Positions 44,189 through 59,208 of a stretch of DNA of 64,000 bases are shown here, one piece after another. Every line of letters begins with the position of its first letter. Within the stretch, counting starts at the first letter, position 1. Under the pieces are notes generated by a model. It ran no database searches. It had not been told where the DNA came from and worked only from the letters and a program-made list of their open reading frames with translations. The position numbers were made by a program, and so were the translations under genes. This stretch comes from Halarcobacter bivalviorum (GTDB taxonomy: Bacteria > Campylobacterota > Campylobacteria > Campylobacterales > Arcobacteraceae), in assembly GCF_003346815.1 (NCBI RefSeq), contig NZ_CP031217.1, positions 2,108,001 to 2,172,000 of the forward strand, written 5' to 3'.

Positions 44189-46483
44189 ATGATTAAAAAG
44201 AAATCAACATTGATTGCACCAATGTTAGCTCTTGCTTTATCAACAAGCTTATACGCAAAACAATATTCAGTAGAAAACTTATCCCTACAAAAGGCAATTG
44301 AACAATTATCAAAAGATTCAAATATGTCATATATGCTTGATGCAAAACTATTAAAAAATCAAAAAGCATCAAACTTTAAAAATATAGAAGGTATTGAAAA
44401 AGCTTTTGAAGAATTATTAAAAAACACAAACCTTGAGGCAATTATTGAAGATAATACTATCTTAATTAGAAAAAGAATAGTAGATAAAAAAGAAAAAAAT
44501 AGCTCGAATAACTTAGGAGAAGTGGAAGTTCAAGGAGAGTGGTTAGGTAATTCAAGTTATGAAGATGTAAAAACATATAGTGGAGCAAGAACAATTATTG
44601 ATTCAGCAACATTAAGTAAAACTGCTGTAAAAAATATTGAAGATGCACTAAGAGTTGTACCAGGTATTCAAATTCAAGATGAGACAGGAACAGGAGTTTT
44701 ACCAAATATCTCATTAAGAGGATTAAAACCTGGTAGAAGTGCAAATTTAAATGCAATGGTAAATGGAATACCAGCTTCAATTGCTCCTTATAGCCACTCA
44801 AGTTTCTCACTATTTCCAATTACAATGGAAACTTTAGAAACTATTGATATAGTAAGAGGTGGAGCAGCTGTTCATTATGGTCCAAACAATGTTGGAGGAG
44901 TTGTAAACTTTGTTACAAAACCTATTTCTACAAAACCTTCTTCTACGATAAAAGGAACTGTACAATCAGCTGATAATGGAAATATTTTAACTGATACTTA
45001 TTTTAGAACAGGTGGTTTTATAAATGATAATTTAGGTTTACAACTTCAATACAATAATATAAATGGAGAATCATTTAGAGATCATTCTGATACAAATGTA
45101 AATAACTTTATTTTTGATTTAGAGTATTTTCCAACAGATAATAGTGAAATAAAATCAAATATTCAATACTACAAAGCAGATGCCAACTTACCAGGAGCAC
45201 AACTTCCAAAAGATTATAAAGATGACAAAAGTTCTTCACAAAGACCTCATGATGAGTTTCATGGAAAAACAAAAAGAGCTTCTATCACTTATAAGTTAAA
45301 TCTCACTGAAGATACAGAGTTTTACTGGATGAACTATGCACAAAAAAGTGAAAGAAGATTTGATTGGGGTTGGAATACATCAGGTTCTTCATTTACTCCA
45401 GGAACAGCTAATTCTGTAAGAGTTGCCGATAGAGAAATTGATGTTTTTGGAACAGAACCTAGATTTACTTTTGAAAAAGCTAATCACAAAGTTACTTTTG
45501 GAACAAGATATGTAAAAGAAGATGTTGATTATTTATTACATCAAATGAAATTTAGTGATGGAGTTCAAGATACACTTAGAGATTGGAAAATCAAAACAGA
45601 TGCTGTTGCAGCTTATTTAAGTGATACTATCTCTTTAATGGATGGAAGATTAAAAGTTACACCAGGGATTAGATACGAAAAAATTGATACTGATTTTGGT
45701 GATAACTTAAGTAATGACCCACTTGCAGATAAGAGAAAAGATATGAGGTCTTGGCTTCCTGGGTTAAGTATTGGGTATCAAGCAACAAATGACCTGTTTT
45801 TATTTACAAATGCACAAAGATCTCTTAAATCTCCACAAGTTGCTCAAGTAAGAAAAGATGGCGATTTAGCAGCTGAACTTGCTTGGAACTATGAGCTTGG
45901 ATTTAGATATGAGCCAAATAGTAAATTTAGTATTGGAAGTACACTTTTTAGAATTGATTATGAAGACCAAATTGAATATGTAGCAAGTACTCAATCTTTT
46001 AAAAACCTTGGAGAGACAAGACACCAAGGTATTGAAACTCAAATCAATTTTAAACCAAGTGATAATACACAGTTTGCCTTAGGATATACATATCTTGATA
46101 CAGAACAATTAACAGGGGATAATAGAGGAAATCAGCTTCCTTGGGTAGCTAAACATCAATTTAGTATCTCATCTGACTATGAATATGATAAAAATAAATT
46201 CAATCTAACAGGGCTTTATATTAGTAAAGCATTTTCTGATAGTACTAATACAAAAGAAGAATCAGCAAATGGACAATATGGAGAAGTTCCTTCATATACT
46301 TTATGGAATGCAAAAGTTTCAAGAGAAGTTAAAATCAATAGTGACTTTACAGCTGATTTGAGCTTTGGAGTTAATAATATCTTTGATAAAGATTATTACT
46401 TTAGAGGTGTTGATGTAAGCCCTATTGGTAGAGTTGCAGGACAAGGAAGAACATTTATTATTTCTGCTCAAATAAATTTCTAA
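44189..46483 (+). CDS. TonB-dependent receptor with STN signalling domain (FecA-like)
   Basis: The 764-residue outer-membrane receptor has a signal peptide (about 1-23), an STN domain (about 25-92; SVENLSLQKAIEQLSKDSNMSYMLD abridged) that talks to FecR, a TonB-box-like GEVEVQG, a plug (about 125-245; NIEDALRVVPGIQIQ and ETIDIVRGGAAVHYG) and a beta barrel ending in ...INF. The ligand is unknown; FecA-like receptors take ferric dicitrate. The gene follows the sigma/FecR genes and has a Fur-box-like site. Confidence 0.94.
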   Translation: MIKKKSTLIAPMLALALSTSLYAKQYSVENLSLQKAIEQLSKDSNMSYMLDAKLLKNQKASNFKNIEGIEKAFEELLKNTNLEAIIEDNTILIRKRIVDKKEKNSSNNLGEVEVQGEWLGNSSYEDVKTYSGARTIIDSATLSKTAVKNIEDALRVVPGIQIQDETGTGVLPNISLRGLKPGRSANLNAMVNGIPASIAPYSHSSFSLFPITMETLETIDIVRGGAAVHYGPNNVGGVVNFVTKPISTKPSSTIKGTVQSADNGNILTDTYFRTGGFINDNLGLQLQYNNINGESFRDHSDTNVNNFIFDLEYFPTDNSEIKSNIQYYKADANLPGAQLPKDYKDDKSSSQRPHDEFHGKTKRASITYKLNLTEDTEFYWMNYAQKSERRFDWGWNTSGSSFTPGTANSVRVADREIDVFGTEPRFTFEKANHKVTFGTRYVKEDVDYLLHQMKFSDGVQDTLRDWKIKTDAVAAYLSDTISLMDGRLKVTPGIRYEKIDTDFGDNLSNDPLADKRKDMRSWLPGLSIGYQATNDLFLFTNAQRSLKSPQVAQVRKDGDLAAELAWNYELGFRYEPNSKFSIGSTLFRIDYEDQIEYVASTQSFKNLGETRHQGIETQINFKPSDNTQFALGYTYLDTEQLTGDNRGNQLPWVAKHQFSISSDYEYDKNKFNLTGLYISKAFSDSTNTKEESANGQYGEVPSYTLWNAKVSREVKINSDFTADLSFGVNNIFDKDYYFRGVDVSPIGRVAGQGRTFIISAQINF

Positions 46484-48988: not shown

Positions 48989-49004
48989 ACCTACTTTTTT
49001 AGTT
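48975..49004. terminator. Shared-stop bidirectional terminator
   Basis: A 14-base-pair perfect inverted repeat AACTAAAAAAGTAG / CTACTTTTTTAGTT with only two bases between its arms. It contains the stop codon of the NikL-like gene and touches that of the convergent kinase, and carries A/T runs on both sides. Confidence 0.8.
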
Positions 49005-50712
49005 AGACCTCTATGGTAAAACAAGCACCTTCTTTTTTATTTTCTACTTTTAACTCCCCTTTAAAGTGTGAGCTGATTATTGTTTTAGACATATAAAGCC
49101 CTATTCCACTTCCACTCTCTTTTGTAGTAAAATATGGTTCAAATATTTTTTCTATATGTACTTTATTTATTCCCTCTGCATTATCACAAACAGTGGTAAA
49201 TGATTTATTAGAATAACTATCTATGGTAATTTTTATTTTAGGCTTTGCTATTTTTCTTTGTACTAAAACATCTTTTGCATTTGTAATTAGATTTAATACT
49301 ACTTGAGAATATTCATTTGCATAAGCACAAATCTCTTTATCTTTTTTTACTTCAACTTCTATTTCTATATTTTCTTTATTTAATAAAACAGACATAATTT
49401 CTACTGCTTGTTTTACAGCCTTTGATATAAAAAAATTCTCTTTCTCTTTTTGTGGTTTATAAAAATCTCTAAAACTATCAATTGTATTTGACATAAACTC
49501 CAATTGCTTATTTGATTCTTCTATTTTTTCTGCTAAATACTCTTTTGAAAGTTTTTTATCATAGGAAGCCATTTGTAAATTCATATTTATAAAACTTAAG
49601 TGCATCAAAGGCTGTCTCCATTGATGAGCAATATTATTTATCATTTCCCCCATTGAGGCTAACTTATTTTTATGAATTAGAAGTTTCTCTTTTTCATTTT
49701 TTTCTTGAACAAAACTTTTTAAAGTAAAAGCTAATGCAAAACTAAAAATCAAAGACTCCATAGGTGCCACAAAATGAATAGTATAAATACCACTTATTGA
49801 TATTAAATTTTTTTCTGCCATAAAAATAAAGCTAAGCATAAAAGCCCAACCAAAAGTATAAACTATAGCTTTTTTATCTCCTTTTAAAATAGAAATAACT
49901 CCTAATAATGTAGGTATTAAAAAACTAATATAAAAAGGCATATACTCATAAAGTAACGAGTAATTTAGAACAAGAATTATTCCTATATCTATAAAATTTA
50001 TAAATAAAAAAAGCTTTATTATAAAAAGAGCAGAAGGGTATATTTTTTTAATATTTAATATCTCTTTTGCAAAGAGTATAGTGAAAATAAAACTAAGATT
50101 TTCAAAAATATCTATTACTGTTTGTGCAAAAACTGAAGGATAGGGTTTAAAACTAACAATCATAAAACCAAATAAAGATAAAAGAACAAAAAGTTGCATA
50201 GTTGAATAAAAAAGAAAACATCTCTTTTTCATAGAAAGATAAATGATAAAATAGTAAAGTGCTGCACAAAAGATTATTCCATAAGCTAAACCATAAATAA
50301 TACCTTCAATAGGAAGAAGGTATTTATATTCAAATTCACTAATTGCTTTTAACCTAAAACCTACTCTTTTAGGATTTTCATACTTATAAAAAAAGAGTAA
50401 ATTATCAGGGGTTTTCTCATCTAATTTAATTAACATTTGATAAGGGGTTTTTATATATTTAATATTTGAAGAGAGTAAGTTGTCATAATCCGAAACAACA
50501 CTTAAATAATAAGTTTTTTTTGAAATCTTATTTTTGTTTAGTTCTACTTTTATAGAGAACTGTTCTACTTTTTTATTTTTATAATCTTTATATTTTGCTA
50601 ACTTATAAGTTTTAAAATCTTCAGAAATATATACCTTATCAATTATTCCAAATTTATCAGAAGCAAAAGAAAAAGAATAAAAAATAAAAAAAATAAAAAC
50701 TATTTTCCTCAT
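49003..50712 (-). CDS. 7TMR-type histidine kinase (HQWRQPL type)
   Basis: The 569-residue protein has a signal peptide (1-17), a periplasmic ligand domain (about 20-130), seven membrane segments (about 135-330) and a kinase core with phosphoacceptor His363 in IAHQWRQPL, N box LNLITNAKD, DNAEGIN and GSGIGLYMSK. This is the 7TMR-DISM plan; HQWRQPL kinases are common in the phylum. It overlaps the preceding response regulator gene by four bases. Placement among Fur-linked genes suggests a role in iron or siderophore response. Confidence 0.92.
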   Translation of the reverse strand: MRKIVFIFFIFYSFSFASDKFGIIDKVYISEDFKTYKLAKYKDYKNKKVEQFSIKVELNKNKISKKTYYLSVVSDYDNLLSSNIKYIKTPYQMLIKLDEKTPDNLLFFYKYENPKRVGFRLKAISEFEYKYLLPIEGIIYGLAYGIIFCAALYYFIIYLSMKKRCFLFYSTMQLFVLLSLFGFMIVSFKPYPSVFAQTVIDIFENLSFIFTILFAKEILNIKKIYPSALFIIKLFLFINFIDIGIILVLNYSLLYEYMPFYISFLIPTLLGVISILKGDKKAIVYTFGWAFMLSFIFMAEKNLISISGIYTIHFVAPMESLIFSFALAFTLKSFVQEKNEKEKLLIHKNKLASMGEMINNIAHQWRQPLMHLSFINMNLQMASYDKKLSKEYLAEKIEESNKQLEFMSNTIDSFRDFYKPQKEKENFFISKAVKQAVEIMSVLLNKENIEIEVEVKKDKEICAYANEYSQVVLNLITNAKDVLVQRKIAKPKIKITIDSYSNKSFTTVCDNAEGINKVHIEKIFEPYFTTKESGSGIGLYMSKTIISSHFKGELKVENKKEGACFTIEV

Positions 50713-51392
50713 AAAATTTCTATCTTATAACCCAATTTAGATATATTTTTTATACTATTTTTAGGAAGTTTCTTTCTTAAATCTCGAACTAAAAGCCTTA
50801 CTGCATTTTCACTCATATATTCATCAAACCAAATATAGTCTTGTAGTTCATCATAAGAGGCAATATTTGGATATTTTCTACATAATAGTTCTAAAAGTTT
50901 GATTTCACTTTTTGTTAATTTAATCTCTTCTTCATCTACCACTAATTTAGATTCAAATAGATTAAAATAACTCTTTTTATCAAAAAATTTTTTATTAGAG
51001 TCAGCTTCTAAACAGTTTTTTGCACATTGTAAAAGTAAAGGGAAAATAGTTTCATGTCTAATAGGTTTACTTAAATATTTAACTAAACCTAAATCAATAG
51101 CATCTAATAAATACTCTTTATCTGTAAATGCTGTCAAAACAATAAATTGAGTTTTTTTATCCTCTTTTCTAACCTGTCTAATCATATCAAGACCATTTAA
51201 TTTTGGCATCTTTATATCAGTAATTACTAAATGAGGATGCTCTTTTTCAATAAGATTTATAGCTTCAAAAGCATCTTTAGCTTCATAGACTTCACTAAAA
51301 AATCTTTTTAAGTAAGAGATTGCATTTACTCTTATTAATTCTTGGTCTTCTACATATAATACTTTTAATTTTTTATACTTTTCTTCTAACAT
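50709..51392 (-). CDS. OmpR-family response regulator (partner of 7TMR kinase)
   Basis: The 227-residue protein has a receiver (about 8-125) with phosphoacceptor Asp59 in LVITDIKMP and SKP lysine, then a winged-helix domain (about 145-226) whose recognition helix region reads ENAVRLLVRDLRKKL. It precedes and overlaps the kinase. A Fur-box-like site lies 32 bases upstream of the ATG. Confidence 0.92.
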   Translation of the reverse strand: MLEEKYKKLKVLYVEDQELIRVNAISYLKRFFSEVYEAKDAFEAINLIEKEHPHLVITDIKMPKLNGLDMIRQVRKEDKKTQFIVLTAFTDKEYLLDAIDLGLVKYLSKPIRHETIFPLLLQCAKNCLEADSNKKFFDKKSYFNLFESKLVVDEEEIKLTKSEIKLLELLCRKYPNIASYDELQDYIWFDEYMSENAVRLLVRDLRKKLPKNSIKNISKLGYKIEIL

Positions 51393-51423
51393 AAAAAGAA
51401 TTATAGTATATTTTAATTAAAAT

Positions 51424-51438
51424 TAATAGTTATTATCA
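51424..51438 (-). promoter_or_regulatory. Fur-box-like site before the response regulator
   Basis: On the minus strand TGATAATAACTATTA matches 12 of 14 positions of the 7-1-7 Fur pattern, 32 bases before the start codon. Confidence 0.5.
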
Positions 51439-51453
51439 TAATTGAGAGTTTAA

Positions 51454-51477
51454 CTAAAAAGGAAAGCTCCTTTTTAG
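51454..51477 (-). terminator. Terminator of siderophore receptor gene
   Basis: A 10-base-pair stem CTAAAAAGGA / TCCTTTTTAG with a four-base loop lies nine bases after the receptor stop; the 3' arm contains the T run. Confidence 0.75.
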
Positions 51478-51486
51478 CTAATTGTT

Positions 51487-53589
51487 TTAGAAAGTATATT
51501 TTAAAGTAAGCATAACATTTCTTGGATCCCCATATGTCATACTATTTGCCCCTATTCCTGAGTAATATTTTTTATCAAAAACATTATTCACATTTAATTG
51601 AAGATTTGTATTACTGTTAAGCTTATAAGAGGCCATTGCATTTGCTATTGCATAAGCTTTTTGTGTAATTTTTTCTGCACCAGCTCCTGTATAAAATTTA
51701 CTTTTATAATTTACACCTGCTCCAACTTGAAATTTATTCATACTATATTTAGCAAAAAGATTTGCTGTTGTTCTTGAAGCTTTTGTATCAAACTTTTCTC
51801 CCTCTGCTGTCTCAGCCTTATAGTTTGCAACTCCAAAACTAAGATTTAAATTATCAGTAATTTGTCCATTTAAATCTAATTCAAAACCTTTACTAACAAC
51901 ACCACTTACTAATTTATAAGGTTGTTTCCCAGCAATTGGAGTACCATCTTCTTCAGCTCCATCTTGTTCTATTCTAAAAACAGATAAAGAAGCATTTAAT
52001 TTTCCATCAAAATATTCTGCTTTTATACCAGTTTCATAGTTTTTACCCTCAATTGGGTCTAAAAAGTTATCACTTCTATTTTTCTTATCTGAAGGTTTGA
52101 AAATACTTGTATAACTTGCATAAATAGAGTGGTTTTTATCTAAATCGTAAACCACTCCTACATAAGGTGTTAACTCATTATCAAATTTTCTTTTTTCTTT
52201 TGTTTCATCTGTACTTGAATATTCCCAACTTGAAACTCTTGCTCCTGCAATTAGCTTTAAAGTCTCTGTAAGAGAAAAATTTCCAGCTAAATAAATAGCT
52301 TTTTGCTCAATTTCTTCTGGCTCAACTATATAAGGTATATCAGCATTTGAAACTTTTGCTAAAGTTAAATCATAATTAAAAAAGTTTGGTAATGATGAAT
52401 AATAACCATTTGGATATCTACCTTTATAGTTACTTGTTTTATCTTTATTATATGAAGTTCCAATAATAATCTCTTGTGCTAAGTTTCCAAACTCAAAAGG
52501 AAGTTTTAAATTTAAATCTAAATTATGTTGTTTATTAGTTTTATCTGACTCCCAATCCATATATGAAATACCACTTCCATCTGCTTTATTAACTTTTCCT
52601 TTAAAATATAACATTGCATTTTTATTATCAATCTCATCATATGAATAAGCAAGGTTTAAAGATATATCTTTATATAAAAGTTGCTCTAAATTTGCAAATA
52701 TTGATTTTACTTCAGTATCCCAATATGTCCAATCATCAGAAACAGTTAAAGACCTATCAAAATTAGTTTTACTTCCATCACTATAAAAAGCAGGAAGACC
52801 ACCCCATCTAACACCTTTTCTTTCAATATTTTGATAACTTGCACCAACTGATACAAAAGTAGAATCAGTTAAGTCCATATCTACAACACCATATAAAAGA
52901 TTATTCTCTTTTTCATATCCATCCATAAAAGAGTTTTTATCCTGATGTTTTGCAATAAGTCTACCTCTAATACTTCCATCACTATTTAAAGCTGATGAAA
53001 TATCTGTCATAAAACTATAAGCATCCCATGAACCTACAGAAATAGAAGCATCTGCTTTAAACTCTTTACTTGTTGCTCTTTTTCTAACTAAATTTATACT
53101 CAATGCAGGATTACCTGCACCAGTAGTAAGTCCATTTGCACCTCTTACAATTTCAACTCTATCAAACATAGCAAGGTCTAAATCTCTATCATTATAAGTT
53201 ATATAAGTTGGCATACCATCAACTTTATAATAATCAATTTCAAAACCTCTTGCTGTAGTTTTTAACCTCTCATCCCATCTATCTAAAGATACTCCTGTAA
53301 CATTTGTAAGCATCTCTTGATAAGAAGTTATTCCTAAATCATTTAGCTTTTGTGTTGTAAGTACATTTACTGATTGTGGTGTATGTCTTAATGATAAATT
53401 CAACTTTGTAGCACTATTCATTGAATCAACAGTATATGAATTTGTAGTTTCTGAATCATTTGAACTAACTACTTCTACCGTTCCAAGAGATGTTTTTTCT
53501 TTATTATTTTCAGCTGCGAATACTGAACCATGGATTAAAAAGGCTGTACAAAAAGATAGCCCTAATATTTTTTGTTTACTTAATTTCAC
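51487..53589 (-). CDS. TonB-dependent siderophore receptor
   Basis: The 700-residue outer-membrane receptor has a signal peptide (1-25), a TonB-box-like GTVEVV (about 36-41), a plug (about 60-180; TPQSVNVLTTQKLNDLG, VDGMPT and RVEIVRGANGL) and a beta barrel closing with KYTF. The stretch VRWGGLPAFYSDG and the DWTYWD motif resemble FpvA/FhuE receptors for hydroxamate or pyoverdine-type siderophores. It has no STN domain. The start is GTG with AAGGAG six bases upstream. A Fur-box-like site is 14 bases upstream. Confidence 0.94.
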   Translation of the reverse strand: MKLSKQKILGLSFCTAFLIHGSVFAAENNKEKTSLGTVEVVSSNDSETTNSYTVDSMNSATKLNLSLRHTPQSVNVLTTQKLNDLGITSYQEMLTNVTGVSLDRWDERLKTTARGFEIDYYKVDGMPTYITYNDRDLDLAMFDRVEIVRGANGLTTGAGNPALSINLVRKRATSKEFKADASISVGSWDAYSFMTDISSALNSDGSIRGRLIAKHQDKNSFMDGYEKENNLLYGVVDMDLTDSTFVSVGASYQNIERKGVRWGGLPAFYSDGSKTNFDRSLTVSDDWTYWDTEVKSIFANLEQLLYKDISLNLAYSYDEIDNKNAMLYFKGKVNKADGSGISYMDWESDKTNKQHNLDLNLKLPFEFGNLAQEIIIGTSYNKDKTSNYKGRYPNGYYSSLPNFFNYDLTLAKVSNADIPYIVEPEEIEQKAIYLAGNFSLTETLKLIAGARVSSWEYSSTDETKEKRKFDNELTPYVGVVYDLDKNHSIYASYTSIFKPSDKKNRSDNFLDPIEGKNYETGIKAEYFDGKLNASLSVFRIEQDGAEEDGTPIAGKQPYKLVSGVVSKGFELDLNGQITDNLNLSFGVANYKAETAEGEKFDTKASRTTANLFAKYSMNKFQVGAGVNYKSKFYTGAGAEKITQKAYAIANAMASYKLNSNTNLQLNVNNVFDKKYYSGIGANSMTYGDPRNVMLTLKYTF

Positions 53590-53602
53590 TTATACTCCTT
53601 AT

Positions 53603-53617
53603 TGATAACAATTATTA
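53603..53617 (-). promoter_or_regulatory. Fur-box-like site before siderophore receptor
   Basis: On the plus strand TGATAACAATTATTA matches the 7-1-7 Fur consensus at 12 of 14 positions. It is in the 170-base gap between the receptor and the transposase-like gene and may serve both. Confidence 0.65.
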
Positions 53618-53759
53618 GAATTAAGATATTTTGGAATTATTTCGGATTTAAACTTAGAATAAAATTATGAGTAATAAATACATGATAAGCAAAAAAAAGA
53701 ACTATTCATTAACTATTTTAATCACATAATTTACACATTTTTTTTAATTAGAATAGTCT

Positions 53760-54326
53760 ATGATTTCTTTTAAAGCACAGAATAAATATAAAAAAATAGA
53801 TAAAAACTCTTTTACAAATATTTGTAAATGTTTTAGCGAAGATTTAACTGCAAGTGAAGCCTCAACTAAAATAGATATTAGTAGAGTAACAATTAATAAA
53901 TACTACAAAATTCTAAGAAACTATATTAACCTATACTATTGCCATACTTTAAATAGTTCTCCTAAATATTGCTACTTAAAATATTTTAATTTTAATAAAA
54001 ATATGATTTTTTACATTGAACACAATAGTGAAATTATTTTATTAAATGATTTTAGGTACTCAATACAAGAAGAGATTAAAAAGAGCCTATTAAACAATAG
54101 AAAAATCAATTGTGCAAAATTATTATTAAATGAAAATAAAAATACCTATTTATTATTAGGATATATGAATAAAAAAAATAGTTTAAATACCTATATTTCT
54201 GAAAGATTAAAAAAATTCAGAGGTATTAATAAAAATAATATTAACACTCATATTAAAGAATCTATTTTTAGATTCAACAATAAGAATACTCCTATATTCT
54301 CGAATTTATCTAGCCTTTTTATCTAA
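53760..54326 (+). CDS. Protein derived from an IS1595/IS1016-type transposase
   Basis: The 188-residue basic protein has a helix-turn-helix (about 18-56; SEDLTASEASTKIDISRVTI) like the one at the start of IS1016-type transposases, and an end (RLKKFRGI at 149-156, HIKESIFRFN at 164-173) like their C-terminus. The middle is short and lacks a recognisable DDE set; near the expected third acid there is Asn or Ser. No terminal inverted repeats are seen around the gene. It appears to be a domesticated DNA-binding protein. TAGAAT five bases before the ATG and no ribosome-binding site suggest a leaderless message. It sits between a siderophore receptor and the TonB2-like operon. Confidence 0.7.
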   Translation: MISFKAQNKYKKIDKNSFTNICKCFSEDLTASEASTKIDISRVTINKYYKILRNYINLYYCHTLNSSPKYCYLKYFNFNKNMIFYIEHNSEIILLNDFRYSIQEEIKKSLLNNRKINCAKLLLNENKNTYLLLGYMNKKNSLNTYISERLKKFRGINKNNINTHIKESIFRFNNKNTPIFSNLSSLFI

Positions 54327-54381
54327 GGTAAAATTCATTGTTACTATTTAATAAACATATAAGTTTATTTTTATTTTCAAT

Positions 54382-54403
54382 TGATTATAATTCTCAAAAT
54401 TAA
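54382..54403 (+). promoter_or_regulatory. Fur-box-like site before the TonB2-like operon
   Basis: TGATTATAATTCTCA matches 12 of 14 positions of the 7-1-7 Fur pattern, 23 bases before the DUF3450 start. It is identical over 22 bases to the site at 46577. Confidence 0.65.
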
Positions 54404-54419
54404 TACTAAAAGGAATTAG

Positions 54420-55166
54420 ATGAATAAGTTATTTAAAACTATTTTCATTTCATTATTTCTGACATCAAGCCTATTTTCAAATGAGATAGATAAGTCATTA
54501 GATGTAATAGAAAATACAAATACTAAACTTAAGACTTATCAAAATAAGATTGACAATGTAGAGTACCAAAGAGAAGAGCTTTTAAGTAAGTATAAATATA
54601 CAAATGCTGAATTAAAAAGTACTAAAATTTACAATGAACAACTAAGAAAAATTCTTCAATCACAACAAGAAGAGTTAAAAAATATGAATCAACAAATTAT
54701 TGATATTGAAAATACTCAAAAAAATATTTTCCCACTTATGATTAGTATGGTAGAGAGTCTAAAAAAATTAGTAGAGATGGACACTCCATTTTTAATTGAA
54801 GAGAGAACTACAAGAATTAAACAACTTGAATCAAACTTAGATAAAGCAGATATTAAAACAGCAGAAAAATATAGAATTATTTTAGAAGCATTTAAAATTG
54901 AGTATGACTATGCAAATAGTATAGAGACATACCAAGATAAAATCGATGGAAAAACATATGATTTTCTTAGACTTGGAAGAACTGCTTTATATTATCAAAG
55001 TTTAGATTTTAAAAACTATGGATATTGGAATAATAAAACAAAAACTTGGGAAAAAATTGATAGTTCTAATGCTAAATCAAATATTAGAAGAGGAATTAAA
55101 ATTGCTCAAAAACATCAAAATGTAGATTTCTTAAATCTTCCATTTCTTACATCGAAGGATAACTAA
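54420..55166 (+). CDS. DUF3450-type periplasmic coiled-coil protein
   Basis: The 248-residue product has a signal peptide (1-21, LFS-NEI) and a long coiled coil (about 22-105) rich in Lys, Glu and Gln, then a globular part with DFLRLGRTALYYQSLD and YWNNKTKTWEKI, typical of DUF3450. In Vibrio-type TonB2 operons a protein of this kind helps the energy complex. It is the first gene of a six-gene operon, with AAGGA five bases upstream, and its stop overlaps the next start (TAATG). Confidence 0.9.
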   Translation: MNKLFKTIFISLFLTSSLFSNEIDKSLDVIENTNTKLKTYQNKIDNVEYQREELLSKYKYTNAELKSTKIYNEQLRKILQSQQEELKNMNQQIIDIENTQKNIFPLMISMVESLKKLVEMDTPFLIEERTTRIKQLESNLDKADIKTAEKYRIILEAFKIEYDYANSIETYQDKIDGKTYDFLRLGRTALYYQSLDFKNYGYWNNKTKTWEKIDSSNAKSNIRRGIKIAQKHQNVDFLNLPFLTSKDN

Positions 55167-56482
55167 TGTTAAAATATTTATTAGTAACACTACTATTTAT
55201 AAACCAAGGTTTTGCACTTGATTTAGAGAACTTATTAAAAAATGTAAAAACTACCTCAAATCAAGAATTAATAGCTGAACAACAAAGATTAAAAAATTTT
55301 ATTGAAAATAAAGAGGAGCAAAAAGAGCTTCTAATAAAAGTAACAAATGAATTAAAAATTGAAAATCTTGAAACTAAAAAATTAAAAAAGATTATTGAAG
55401 AGAATGAAAAAGTATTAGCTGAAAAAGAGGCTGAGTTAAATCTAAAAATTGGTGACTTAGGAGAGATGTTTGGAAGTGTTAGACAAACTTCAGCAGACTT
55501 TTTAACAAATTACCAAAGAAGTTTTACAGCATCTGAGTTTCCACAAAAAGAAGAGATTTTTACAAAATTTTCAAACTCTAAAAAACTTCCAACAATAGAA
55601 GAACTAACTCTATTTTGGCATACAATGTTAGATGAAATTATTCAAAGTGGAAAAGTATCAACTTATCAAGCAAGTGTAATCTTACAAGATGGAGAGAGAA
55701 CTCTTCAAGATGTTACTAGAATTGGTATTTTTTCTGCATTTTCAAAAGGACAATTTTTAAAATATTCAGATGATATTAACTCTTTAATTGAATTATCAAC
55801 ACAACCTCCTTCAACATTTATATCAAATGCAAAGGATTTTGAAGCAAGTAAAGCAGAGATTAAATCTGTACTTGTAGACCCTACAAGAGGTACACTATTT
55901 GAGATGCTTGGAAATAAACCAACATTTATGGATAGAATTCATCAAGGTGGGATTGTAGGATATATAATCATCTTACTAGGTGTTTTAGGTCTTCTATTTG
56001 CAGCTTATAAAATTCTATTTTTAAACCTAATTCATACAAAAATTAAAAAACAACAAAAGAACTTAGAAAACTATGATGAGACAAACTCTTTAGGAAAAAT
56101 TGCAGGGGTATTTTATAAAAATGTAAATGACTCAATCAATGATTTAGAAATCAAAATTGGGGAAGCAATTTTAAAAGAAACAAACCATATCAAAAAAGGT
56201 CAAAGCTTTGTAAAGCTTCTTGCAGCAGTAACTCCACTACTTGGATTATTAGGAACTGTTACAGGGATGATTGCAACTTTCCAAGCTATTACTTTATTTG
56301 GTACAGGTGACCCAAAACTTATGGCAGGTGGGATTTCAACTGCACTTATTACTACAGTTTTAGGTCTTGTTACAGCTATTCCTTTACTTTTTGCATACAC
56401 ATATATCTCTTCAAAAGCTGAAGCTATTGTATCTGTATTAGAAGAGCAAAGTATAGGAATGTTAGCAAAAACACTTAAATAA
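55166..56482 (+). CDS. TtpC-like ExbB-family protein with periplasmic coiled coil
   Basis: The 438-residue protein has a signal peptide (1-17), a long periplasmic coiled coil (about 20-110), a linker, and an ExbB-type domain with membrane segments (about 265-285, 355-375, 390-412) including TPLLGLLGTVTGMIATFQAI and GGISTALITTVLGLVTAIPL. This is the architecture of TtpC, the extra part of TonB2 systems. It is followed by exbB with a one-base gap. Confidence 0.92.
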   Translation: MLKYLLVTLLFINQGFALDLENLLKNVKTTSNQELIAEQQRLKNFIENKEEQKELLIKVTNELKIENLETKKLKKIIEENEKVLAEKEAELNLKIGDLGEMFGSVRQTSADFLTNYQRSFTASEFPQKEEIFTKFSNSKKLPTIEELTLFWHTMLDEIIQSGKVSTYQASVILQDGERTLQDVTRIGIFSAFSKGQFLKYSDDINSLIELSTQPPSTFISNAKDFEASKAEIKSVLVDPTRGTLFEMLGNKPTFMDRIHQGGIVGYIIILLGVLGLLFAAYKILFLNLIHTKIKKQQKNLENYDETNSLGKIAGVFYKNVNDSINDLEIKIGEAILKETNHIKKGQSFVKLLAAVTPLLGLLGTVTGMIATFQAITLFGTGDPKLMAGGISTALITTVLGLVTAIPLLFAYTYISSKAEAIVSVLEEQSIGMLAKTLK

Positions 56483-56483
56483 T

Positions 56484-57002
56484 ATGATTGATTTATATAT
56501 AGATAACTTCTTTAACTTTTTTGATAAAGGTGGTTTTGTTTTATATATCGTATTTGCAATTGCCCTATTTCTTTGGGCTTTGTTAATTGAAAGATATATC
56601 TATATTAGTTTTGAGTACAAAAAGTATGCAAAGGCTTTAAAACAAGATTTATCAAAACAACAATTCAATCAAAAGTTTAAAGAAGAGATAAAAAAGTATC
56701 TAATTGAAGACTCTAATATTAGACTAAAAACAGGTCTTAGTTTTATTAAGACCTTAATTATAGTTTGTCCTTTAGTTGGTCTTTTAGGAACTGTTACAGG
56801 GATGATTGAAGTCTTTGATGTGATGGCACTAAATGGTACAAGTAATGTTAAATCTATGGCAAATGGTGTATCAATGGCAACTATTCCAACAATGGCAGGA
56901 ATGGTTGTAGCACTTAGTGGAATTTTATTTGAAAAAAAATTAGAACTATCAATAAAGTACCATACAGATAAATTATATTTAGAAATATCAAAGGTTTTAT
57001 AA
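56484..57002 (+). CDS. exbB: ExbB proton channel protein (second set)
   Basis: The 172-residue protein has three membrane segments (about 16-36, 86-106, 128-148) and the core CPLVGLLGTVTGMIEVFDVM and MATIPTMAGMVVALSG. It is the channel of the TonB2-like motor and is distinct from the set at 13.1 kb. One-base gap to exbD. Confidence 0.94.
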   Translation: MIDLYIDNFFNFFDKGGFVLYIVFAIALFLWALLIERYIYISFEYKKYAKALKQDLSKQQFNQKFKEEIKKYLIEDSNIRLKTGLSFIKTLIIVCPLVGLLGTVTGMIEVFDVMALNGTSNVKSMANGVSMATIPTMAGMVVALSGILFEKKLELSIKYHTDKLYLEISKVL

Positions 57003-57003
57003 A

Positions 57004-57408
57004 ATGAGAAGATTTTCACAAAAAAACAATAAAGAAGAGACAGAAATAAACTTAACACCAATGCTTGATGTTGTTTTTATTATGTTAATTTTCTTTATTG
57101 TAACAACCTCTTTTGTAAAAGAAGCAGGAATAGAAGTAAATAGACCAAGTGCAAAAACTAGTCAACAAAAAACAGAAGCAAATATTTTAATTGCAATTAA
57201 AAACAATGATGAGATTTGGATTGATAAAAGAATGGTTGATATAAGAGCTGTTAGGTCTAATATAGAGAGGCTTAAAGCTTCAAATACTGAAAGCAGTGTT
57301 GTAGTTCAATCAGACAAAGATGCAAGAACTGGTGTTTTAGTAAAAGTTATGGATCAAGTAAGACTTGCAGGCATAACAAATATCTCTGTTTCAACACTAA
57401 AGAATTAA
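57004..57408 (+). CDS. exbD: ExbD proton channel protein (second set)
   Basis: The 134-residue protein has one membrane segment (about 21-39) with the essential Asp22 in NLTPMLDVVFIMLIFF and a periplasmic domain with NILIAIKNNDEIWIDK. It lies between exbB and tonB with one-base gaps on both sides. Confidence 0.95.
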   Translation: MRRFSQKNNKEETEINLTPMLDVVFIMLIFFIVTTSFVKEAGIEVNRPSAKTSQQKTEANILIAIKNNDEIWIDKRMVDIRAVRSNIERLKASNTESSVVVQSDKDARTGVLVKVMDQVRLAGITNISVSTLKN

Positions 57409-57409
57409 G

Positions 57410-58036
57410 ATGCGTATTTTAATTGCAGTAGCTGTATCTTTTATTATTTCTGTGGGAATGTTTATTTTAATGCAAAAGATGACCTCAACACAAAGTGAAG
57501 CAATAAAAAAAGAGACAAAATCAGTGGAACTAAACTTTTTAAGAGATAAAAAAGATACTGTTGTAGAAAAAAAACAAAGGGTTAAACCTAAAGAACCAGT
57601 TAAAAAAGTAGAGCCTAAAAAACTGGATATGAAAACAAATTTAAATCAAGAATTAAATAAAAATGTAAAAATAAAACCTTTAGATATTAGCCAAAACATT
57701 GATATTTCATCTATCAACTCTTTAACTGGTGCACAAATAAATATTGGCTCAAATCTTTTAGATGCAAATATGTTAACTGCACTTAAAAGAGTTAATCCAA
57801 GATATCCAAGACGAGCAAAAATCAAAAGACAAGAAGGGTTTGTTCAATTGGCTTTTAAAATTGATTCAAGTGGTTTTGTTTCTGAAGTTCAAGTTGTAGA
57901 TTCAAATCCAAAAGGCGTATTTGATGAAGAAGCTAGTAAAGCAATCAAAAAATGGCGATTTAAACCAGCAAAAGATGATATTCCTGGAAGCTTCAAAAAT
58001 GCAACAATTACATTTAATTTTAGGTTGGCAAAATGA
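57410..58036 (+). CDS. tonB: Energy transducer TonB
   Basis: The 208-residue protein has a membrane anchor (about 3-21), a short Lys/Pro/Glu linker (VKPKEPVKKVEPKK) and a TonB C-terminal domain (about 125-208; VNPRYPRRAKIKRQEGFV, ASKAIKKWRFKPA). It couples the motor to the receptors in this region. The short linker resembles TonB2. It overlaps the TPR gene by four bases. Confidence 0.95.
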   Translation: MRILIAVAVSFIISVGMFILMQKMTSTQSEAIKKETKSVELNFLRDKKDTVVEKKQRVKPKEPVKKVEPKKLDMKTNLNQELNKNVKIKPLDISQNIDISSINSLTGAQINIGSNLLDANMLTALKRVNPRYPRRAKIKRQEGFVQLAFKIDSSGFVSEVQVVDSNPKGVFDEEASKAIKKWRFKPAKDDIPGSFKNATITFNFRLAK

Positions 58037-59208
58037 TAAAAAAAATACTATTTTTAACACTTATTTGTTTTTGCACAAATATTTTTGCACAAATGCAAAT
58101 GTCAAAAGGTACATATAATAGTTTACTTAAAGCACAAAAACTTATGGAAAAAGAGGATTATAAAACAGCTAAGAGCATATTAGAAAAAATTTTTGCAAAT
58201 GACTCTAAAAATAAATATGAGAAATCTTATGCTCTTCAAACTATAAGTAATATCTATATTCAAGAGAATAAATATGAAAAAGTAGCAAAAGCTTATGAAA
58301 AAATCATAAGTTATAATGCCTTTGAAAAAGATAGCCTTGATAGAATAAAACTCTCTTTATCTAAAATCTATTTATCCCTAGAAAAATATAAGCAGAGTCT
58401 AAAACTTTCAAATGAGCTTCTTAATAGTAAAGTGATTAAAAAAGAAGAGCTTTATGAATCTTTTATTCTTGCTTTTTACTATACAAAAAAATATAAACAA
58501 AGTATTGAATACTCTAAAAAATATTTTTCACTAAAAGATAAAATTAATGAATCATGGTACAAAATTCTTTATTCCTCTTATGTTGAAATCAAAGATTATA
58601 ATGGTGCAATAAAAACTATGGAAACCATGGTTAAACTATTTAGCAAAAATGAGAGTTATTGGGTACAACTAGCTTCTTTATATCAAGAGAAAGATAGATT
58701 AAAAGATTCTCTTTCTACCCTTGAATTAGCATATAAAAATGGTATTTTAAAAAACAAAAACAATATTCTTTATTTTATAAATATCTCTTTACAAAATGGT
58801 GTATATAAAAAAGCAAATCTATTATTAGCAAAAGCAGTTAAAGATGGTCTTATTGAAGAGGATAAAAAGATATTTGAACTTCTTATTTCAACTCACATAA
58901 ATGCAAAAGATAATGAACTTGCTATTAAAAAAATCACTAATTCTAAATTTGCAAAAGAGGATAAATATAGATTGATTCTTGCAAACTTATATTTCAATAA
59001 ACAAGAGTATAAAAAAAGTATCTCTATCTTAGATGAAATAAAAGCAAAACATAAAAGTGATATCTCTGGAGAAAAAGATATTTTAAAAGCTTTATGTTTT
59101 TATGAATTAAATGATAAAACAACTTCAATCAAAATTTTAAAACAAGCTTTAAATAACCCTCACCATAAAAAAAGAGCAAAGAGTATTCTAAAAAGCCTTG
59201 AGAGTTAA
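58033..59208 (+). CDS. TPR-repeat periplasmic protein of the TonB2-like operon
   Basis: The 391-residue product has a signal peptide (1-19) and a series of TPR-like helical repeats from about 25 to the end (AQKLMEKEDYKTAKSILEKI, AKAYEKIISYNAFEKDS, QLASLYQEKDRLKDSLSTLE abridged). In Vibrio TonB2 operons a TPR protein also ends the set. It starts by ATGA overlap with tonB. Its stop is in a palindrome shared with the convergent kinase. Confidence 0.9.
   Translation: MIKKILFLTLICFCTNIFAQMQMSKGTYNSLLKAQKLMEKEDYKTAKSILEKIFANDSKNKYEKSYALQTISNIYIQENKYEKVAKAYEKIISYNAFEKDSLDRIKLSLSKIYLSLEKYKQSLKLSNELLNSKVIKKEELYESFILAFYYTKKYKQSIEYSKKYFSLKDKINESWYKILYSSYVEIKDYNGAIKTMETMVKLFSKNESYWVQLASLYQEKDRLKDSLSTLELAYKNGILKNKNNILYFINISLQNGVYKKANLLLAKAVKDGLIEEDKKIFELLISTHINAKDNELAIKKITNSKFAKEDKYRLILANLYFNKQEYKKSISILDEIKAKHKSDISGEKDILKALCFYELNDKTTSIKILKQALNNPHHKKRAKSILKSLES

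Follow-up and report, generated by a model that had tools for sequence, protein, structure and literature searches.

A domesticated IS1016-group transposase as a putative DNA-binding regulator beside a siderophore receptor gene of Halarcobacter bivalviorum

Transcription factors of transposase origin, familiar from eukaryotes, are rare in bacteria; the bacterial cases known to us, TldR and RAYT, belong to protein classes other than that of the protein described here. TldR is likewise a transposon-encoded protein turned transcription regulator (PMC13418256), but it originates from TnpB nucleases and uses a guide RNA, whereas the present protein has its origin in a DDE transposase equipped with a DNA-binding helix-turn-helix (HTH), and no known RNA family was found near its gene. 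TnpA-REP (RAYT) equally is a single-copy domesticated bacterial transposase; it is tied to REP repeats, whereas the present protein has lost catalysis and is tied to receptor promoters (PMC8266576). TnpA-REP belongs to another transposase class, Y1 HUH. Also among the closest described systems is the IS1016 group (DDE_Tnp_IS1595, PF12762; ISApl4, PMC12561309), with which the protein shares the HTH, the order of secondary structure elements and the C-terminal LxKFxGI..LHLKECEFRFN region, but from which it differs by the absence of D, D and E, a shrunken middle, the lack of terminal inverted repeats, a single copy at a fixed place and a similarity below Pfam detection. In the open-access literature searched, no description has been found of this family, of a sister family linked to hyp genes or of a further lineage linked to argH.

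The gene is an open frame at positions 53760-54326 of the window, the 64,000-nucleotide stretch of Halarcobacter bivalviorum DNA, and occurs only once in the 2.68-Mb genome. Its surroundings are summarized in Table 1; the ExbD-like, TonB-like and TPR products of the downstream operon are what we take them to be from names read from the sequence. If the TAGAAT hexamer is the -10 element of the gene, which is possible from inspection by eye, the leader would be very short. A Rfam scan of positions 50000-58000 found no RNA. The island contains a second TonB receptor at 44189-46483, the N-terminus of which resembles a secretin/TonB short (STN) signalling domain; no FecI/FecR-like pair has been seen among the open reading frames read nearby.

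Table 1. Coordinates of the gene, its presumed regulatory elements and neighbouring genes in the window
Feature	Position	Strand	Remark
Sensor histidine kinase	49003..50712	-	presumed partner of the response regulator
OmpR/PhoB-type response regulator	50709..51392	-	behind the receptor
FhuE-like TonB-dependent siderophore receptor	51487..53589	-	divergent partner of the transposase-derived gene
Fur-box-like TGATAACAATTATTA	53603..53617		just upstream of the receptor; by eye, no statistics
m1, TAAG-N9-GAAATAATTCC	53633..53656	-	receptor promoter element, rigid 23 bp from m2
m2, CTTATCATGT (family CTTGTCATGA; CATGAYAAG towards the transposase-derived gene)	53680..53689	-	IS1016-end-like; candidate operator of the domesticated transposase
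m3, 11-bp-period direct repeat CACATAATTTA-CACATTTTTT	53723..53743	+	upstream of the transposase-derived gene; probable response-regulator box
-10-like TAGAAT	53749..53754	+	by eye, ~6 nt 5' of ATG
Domesticated IS1016-group transposase, putative DNA-binding regulator	53760..54326	+	188 aa
Helix-turn-helix region	53802..53936	+	residues ~15-59; invariant R42, T44, N46, Y48, R53
Shrunken middle domain	53967..54179	+	~residues 70-140, b-b-b-a-b-b; without D, D or E
IS1016-like C-terminal region	54180..54320	+	RLKKFRGIN..HIKES.FRFNN
Coiled-coil + two ExbB/TolQ-like + ExbD-like + TonB-like + TPR operon	54420..59208	+	downstream of the transposase-derived gene

Searches against Pfam, NCBIfam, PHROGs and PDB sequences assigned the protein to no family beyond weak HTH_11/Sigma70_r4 matches of its HTH and a match to phrog_9697 (E 1.5e-4, HTH only), and neither Pfam nor NCBIfam holds a model for the family. 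An order-wide search with the family profile retrieved intact IS1016-like transposases from other Campylobacterales, which display the catalytic blocks VDESYFG, SDxWxxY and HINGIExFW. Alignment of the family profile by hhalign with five intact Campylobacterales IS1016-like transposases (L114, L128, L129, L139 and L147) extended over 189 columns with 99.0% probability and an E-value of 6.6e-18. In the alignment to the intact transposases the D2 column is occupied by K, R, S, Q or T in 28/28 members, and the D1 (S/K/C/N/...) and E (N/K/D/...) columns are scattered and unconserved, the window copy carrying S, R and N at the three positions. The N-terminal HTH of IS1016 type has been retained, as has the C-terminal K-F-x-G..K-E-x..R-x-N region, of which G, E, R and N are invariant in 28/28 members. 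An AlphaFold model of the protein (pLDDT 86.7, pTM 0.81), which places the HTH helices at residues 15-26, 31-38 and 42-59, and a model of an intact relative (pLDDT 77.5, pTM 0.79) have the element order HTH, b-b-b-a-b-b-a-a-a in common; for the intact relative the PDB returns ISCth4, Mos1 and integrases, with E-values down to 3e-6, whereas a Foldseek search of the PDB with the model of the transposase-derived protein found no match. Around the gene no terminal inverted repeats are present, only AT-rich chance pairs in the flanks, and neither the protein nor any other protein of the whole genus reaches the PF12762 cut-off. Equally, the multiple copies or shifting insertion sites of a mobile insertion sequence (IS) are not observed, the gene being single-copy in a conserved neighbourhood. 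Homology, the lost triad, the contrast between the models in the PDB, the absence of inverted repeats and the absence of PF12762 proteins from the genus thus identify the protein as derived from an IS1016-group (IS1595 family) transposase and as a transposase no longer. The initial annotation, made from sequence alone, had claimed an IS1016/IS1595-type HTH at the start together with an FRFN-type end, a short middle without a DDE set and the lack of terminal repeats, all of which held upon the profile, catalytic-residue and structure comparisons that it had proposed and upon inspection of the flanks for repeats. As a separate observation, Foldseek aligned the model over its full length (E 7.8e-5) with an uncharacterized phage protein of 225 aa, BFVD A0A8S5TLG3 (Siphoviridae sp. 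ctwQT14), which may be a relative carried by a phage.

A pattern-based contig search with the single protein yielded nothing, and relatives were recovered by whole-genome tblastn, which identified 30 copies in 29/104 Arcobacteraceae genomes, the relatives in 28 further genomes being full-length with 34-62% identity except in G013. The 29 genomes include G013, the copy of which is frameshifted. One copy, carried by plasmid pACLO of Arcobacter cloacae and annotated as 'hypothetical protein', is likewise in divergent orientation to a gene for a TonB siderophore receptor. All 30 copies lie within iron-uptake loci, 22 directly divergent from a TonB receptor and the remaining 8 adjoining a response regulator/histidine kinase pair, an exb-tonB operon or a receptor, with variable genes on the far side (exb-tonB operon, AraC with receptor and PepSY, or RND-MFP-TolC efflux). 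Residues S41, R42, T44, N46, Y48 and R53 of the HTH and R149, F153, R154, G155, E167, R171 and N173 of the C-terminus are invariant in the 28-member alignment. The family is monophyletic (support 100/98) and separate both from the intact IS1016-like transposases and from a further two dead lineages; its pairwise dN/dS (NG86) of about 0.1-0.3 compares with about 0.1-0.2 for the coiled-coil and ExbB genes next to it. Purifying selection and monophyly argue against a decaying insertion, and the orthologues show the gene to be a host gene under purifying selection at a conserved place. The frameshifted gene of G013 (L059:9451-9979, G013:C14) has retained m3 and m2-m1 and is a candidate for a natural knock-out.

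Two sequence elements accompany the family. At receptor promoters a composite element, m2-m1, reads CTTGTCATGA-N23-TAAG-N9-GAAATAATTC and is followed by the Fur-like box; among 20 anchored loci the spacer between m2 and m1 measures 23 bp, with a single exception of 22 bp. With at most one mismatch, m2-N23-m1 is found in 22/29 genomes with the gene versus 0/75 without (Fisher 8e-17, uncorrected for relatedness, common ancestry inflating the co-occurrence), and two matches with two mismatches among the genomes without the gene are chance-like. Despite presence of the gene, G032, G033, G086, G087, G089, G091 and G095 lack m2-N23-m1 at up to two mismatches; G091 carries the element with a 22-bp spacer. 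In addition, m2-m1 stands in front of second receptors and of PepSY operons that are located apart from the gene (L033, L034, L059 and G084:C10). From this distribution and the sites away from the gene we infer that m2-m1 follows the transposase-derived protein, a conclusion that is likely and rests on distribution only, without binding data. It remains possible that m1 is instead part of the promoter itself or is bound by a different factor.

The m2 half resembles the ends of the elements from which the protein is derived. Intact IS1016-like elements end in GGCTCAAGATAAGTTA, GGGTCTAGACTAGCAT, GGGGCTAGACTAGTTTA and variants, that is in ends of the GG..CWNKAYWAG type, and the IS1595-family element ISApl4 has the end GGGGCTGTACTAGA (PMC12561309). 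When a matrix of the IS-end core was run over both strands of the anchored intergenic regions, the top score fell exactly at m2, in the orientation CATGAYAAG towards the transposase-derived gene, and 2/1000 column-permuted matrices equalled this score (P=0.003). The likeness is suggestive and no more than a possibility, as it comprises only about 9 bp and was noticed post hoc. Intact elements of about 750 bp with GGCTCAAGATAAGTTA or GGGGCTAGACTAGTTTA ends are available in other Campylobacterales (L185-L192).

The second element, m3, consists of (C/G)(A/C)CATTTTTT repeated twice with an 11-bp period about 37-44 nt 5' of the ATG of nearly all family copies. The period of 11 reaches z=18.6 against dinucleotide shuffles, other periods tested not exceeding 4.4, and a score of at least 11 is attained by 68% of the family copies versus 0.6% of 178 control upstreams, which are non-coding stretches preceding the other genes of those loci. 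Repeats of this type, for example GACATTTTTTAGACATTTTTT, are also present upstream of the receptor in five loci which retain the receptor and a related response regulator and in which no family gene adjoins, namely those of G011, G012, G014 and G031, which have no family gene, and the second locus of G033, which has its family gene elsewhere. There m3 outscores all but one of 209 control regions, the single exception being the genuine m3 site before the frameshifted gene of G013, and m2-m1 is absent. Direct repeats with an 11-bp period and TGTC/A-rich units are the architecture of PhoB/OmpR boxes, and m3 satisfies this description in lying near OmpR/PhoB-type regulator genes. Since m3 precedes receptors in response regulator loci without a family gene, it is better read as a response-regulator box, and m3 is likely to be the box of the neighbouring OmpR/PhoB-type regulator, binding data being absent. 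The m3 unit covaries with the type of response regulator (14:0 versus 0:10, relatedness uncorrected), which by itself cannot separate the response regulator from the transposase-derived protein as the binder because the two are co-inherited. Scans of the window's own genome for m3 alone or m1 alone were uninformative beyond the known site owing to AT-rich chance matches.

The model that we favour, by a modest margin and in the absence of binding or expression data, is a chain from the two-component system via the domesticated transposase to the siderophore receptor. The adjacent response regulator would bind m3 and control the transposase-derived gene, by activation or repression; the product, a sequence-specific transcription factor of siderophore uptake, would bind the IS-end-like m2 through its transposase HTH and, aided by m1 at the fixed distance of 23 bp, would most likely activate the receptor gene, with Fur acting alongside. 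Activation rather than repression is inferred from geometry alone. In some genomes the protein may also control a second receptor or a PepSY operon. In this way a relay of transposase origin would have come to stand between the two-component system and the receptor. What computation has shown is the ancestry of the protein, its loss of catalysis, the selection on it, its placement in iron loci and both motifs with their distribution. A bolder reading, which we would as a whole rather doubt than endorse, holds that the operators descend from or mimic the terminal repeats of the ancestral element, that the relay was inserted between the two-component system and the receptor, that in relatives without the gene the response regulator controls the receptor directly and that a sister lineage has been domesticated beside hydrogenase-maturation genes.

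The initial annotation had proposed a domesticated regulator of siderophore uptake located between two Fur-linked units. Domestication is supported by selection and monophyly, 'regulator' remains an inference with indirect support from an operator-like element confined, at up to one mismatch, to genomes with the gene, and the placement is supported in part, by a Fur-like box recognized by eye on the receptor side. The neighbourhood survey that it had called for did find orthologues adjoining iron genes, and none of the outcomes that it would have taken as refutation, an intact DDE triad, terminal inverted repeats or orthologues without iron linkage, has been encountered. It had missed the probable response-regulator box before the gene and the IS-end-like element at the receptor.

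Among the rival explanations, the one that survives best is that the protein autoregulates its gene via m3 and that m2-m1 belongs to another regulator. This is possible: m3 lies just 5' of nearly every copy, including those without a divergent receptor, and the hyp-linked sister family likewise has a conserved element directly 5' of its own gene. Against it stand the occurrence of m3 before receptors that neighbour the response regulator at loci where no family gene adjoins, in four cases in genomes devoid of the gene, and the PhoB/OmpR-box architecture of m3. As a candidate for the protein's own autoregulatory operator m3 has been dropped on account of these five loci. Less readily can it be maintained that the response regulator binds both m3 and m2-m1 with the transposase-derived protein serving as accessory or cofactor, for instance by corepression or by bending DNA; response regulator and receptor do adjoin in most loci, but G011, G012, G014 and G031, with a related response regulator and receptor and no family gene, have m3 without m2-m1, and m2 resembles IS ends and not m3, which leaves this explanation unlikely. 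Very unlikely is regulation of another process, such as the exb-tonB operon or RND efflux, by a protein that merely adjoins the receptor: the downstream genes vary (exb-tonB operon, RND-MFP-TolC efflux, AraC/PepSY), but the constant partner is a TonB receptor or the response regulator/histidine kinase pair, and m2-m1 is situated at receptor promoters. A recent, functionless decaying IS remnant, for which transposase ancestry and the frameshift in G013 might speak, is all but excluded because conservation already contradicts it, with single-copy full-length frames in conserved neighbourhoods of 28 genomes, low dN/dS (~0.1-0.3), invariant HTH and C-terminal residues and no terminal inverted repeats.

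If the circuit from two-component system via the domesticated transposase to the receptor is true, siderophore uptake in Arcobacteraceae gains a named regulator, and the sister family offers a candidate for the control of [NiFe]-hydrogenase maturation across Campylobacterales. Relatives with and without the gene, and intact IS together with their ends, are at hand for comparison, which makes it directly testable how a transposase, and possibly the site that it binds, was turned into a regulatory circuit.

The hyp-linked sister family (A2/A6), present in many Campylobacterales, combines an HTH with an IS1016-like C-terminus without DDE and aligns with the present family at 97.5% in hhalign. Like the latter it is a dead IS1016-like protein that is encoded only once and often in divergent orientation to a metal-related operon; it differs by four Zn-ribbon cysteines, proximity to hypBCDE(A) and a different upstream motif. 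Members with Zn-ribbon, HTH and dead IS1016-like domain are encoded in L060-L065, L068-L071, L116-L127 and L132, mostly divergent from hypBCDE(A), and in many of them a conserved element resembling CTTATATATTTTTAGAAC precedes the member's own gene. The match of IS ends in upstream regions of the hyp-linked family was not significant (P=0.27). These proteins might possibly be regulators of hydrogenase/nickel genes across Campylobacterales. A third dead lineage consists of IS1016-like proteins of about 200 aa without DDE (L133:9458-10084, L134:9062-9664 and L110:1120-1707), of which at least those of L133 and L110 are encoded convergently with argH or in partial overlap with it.
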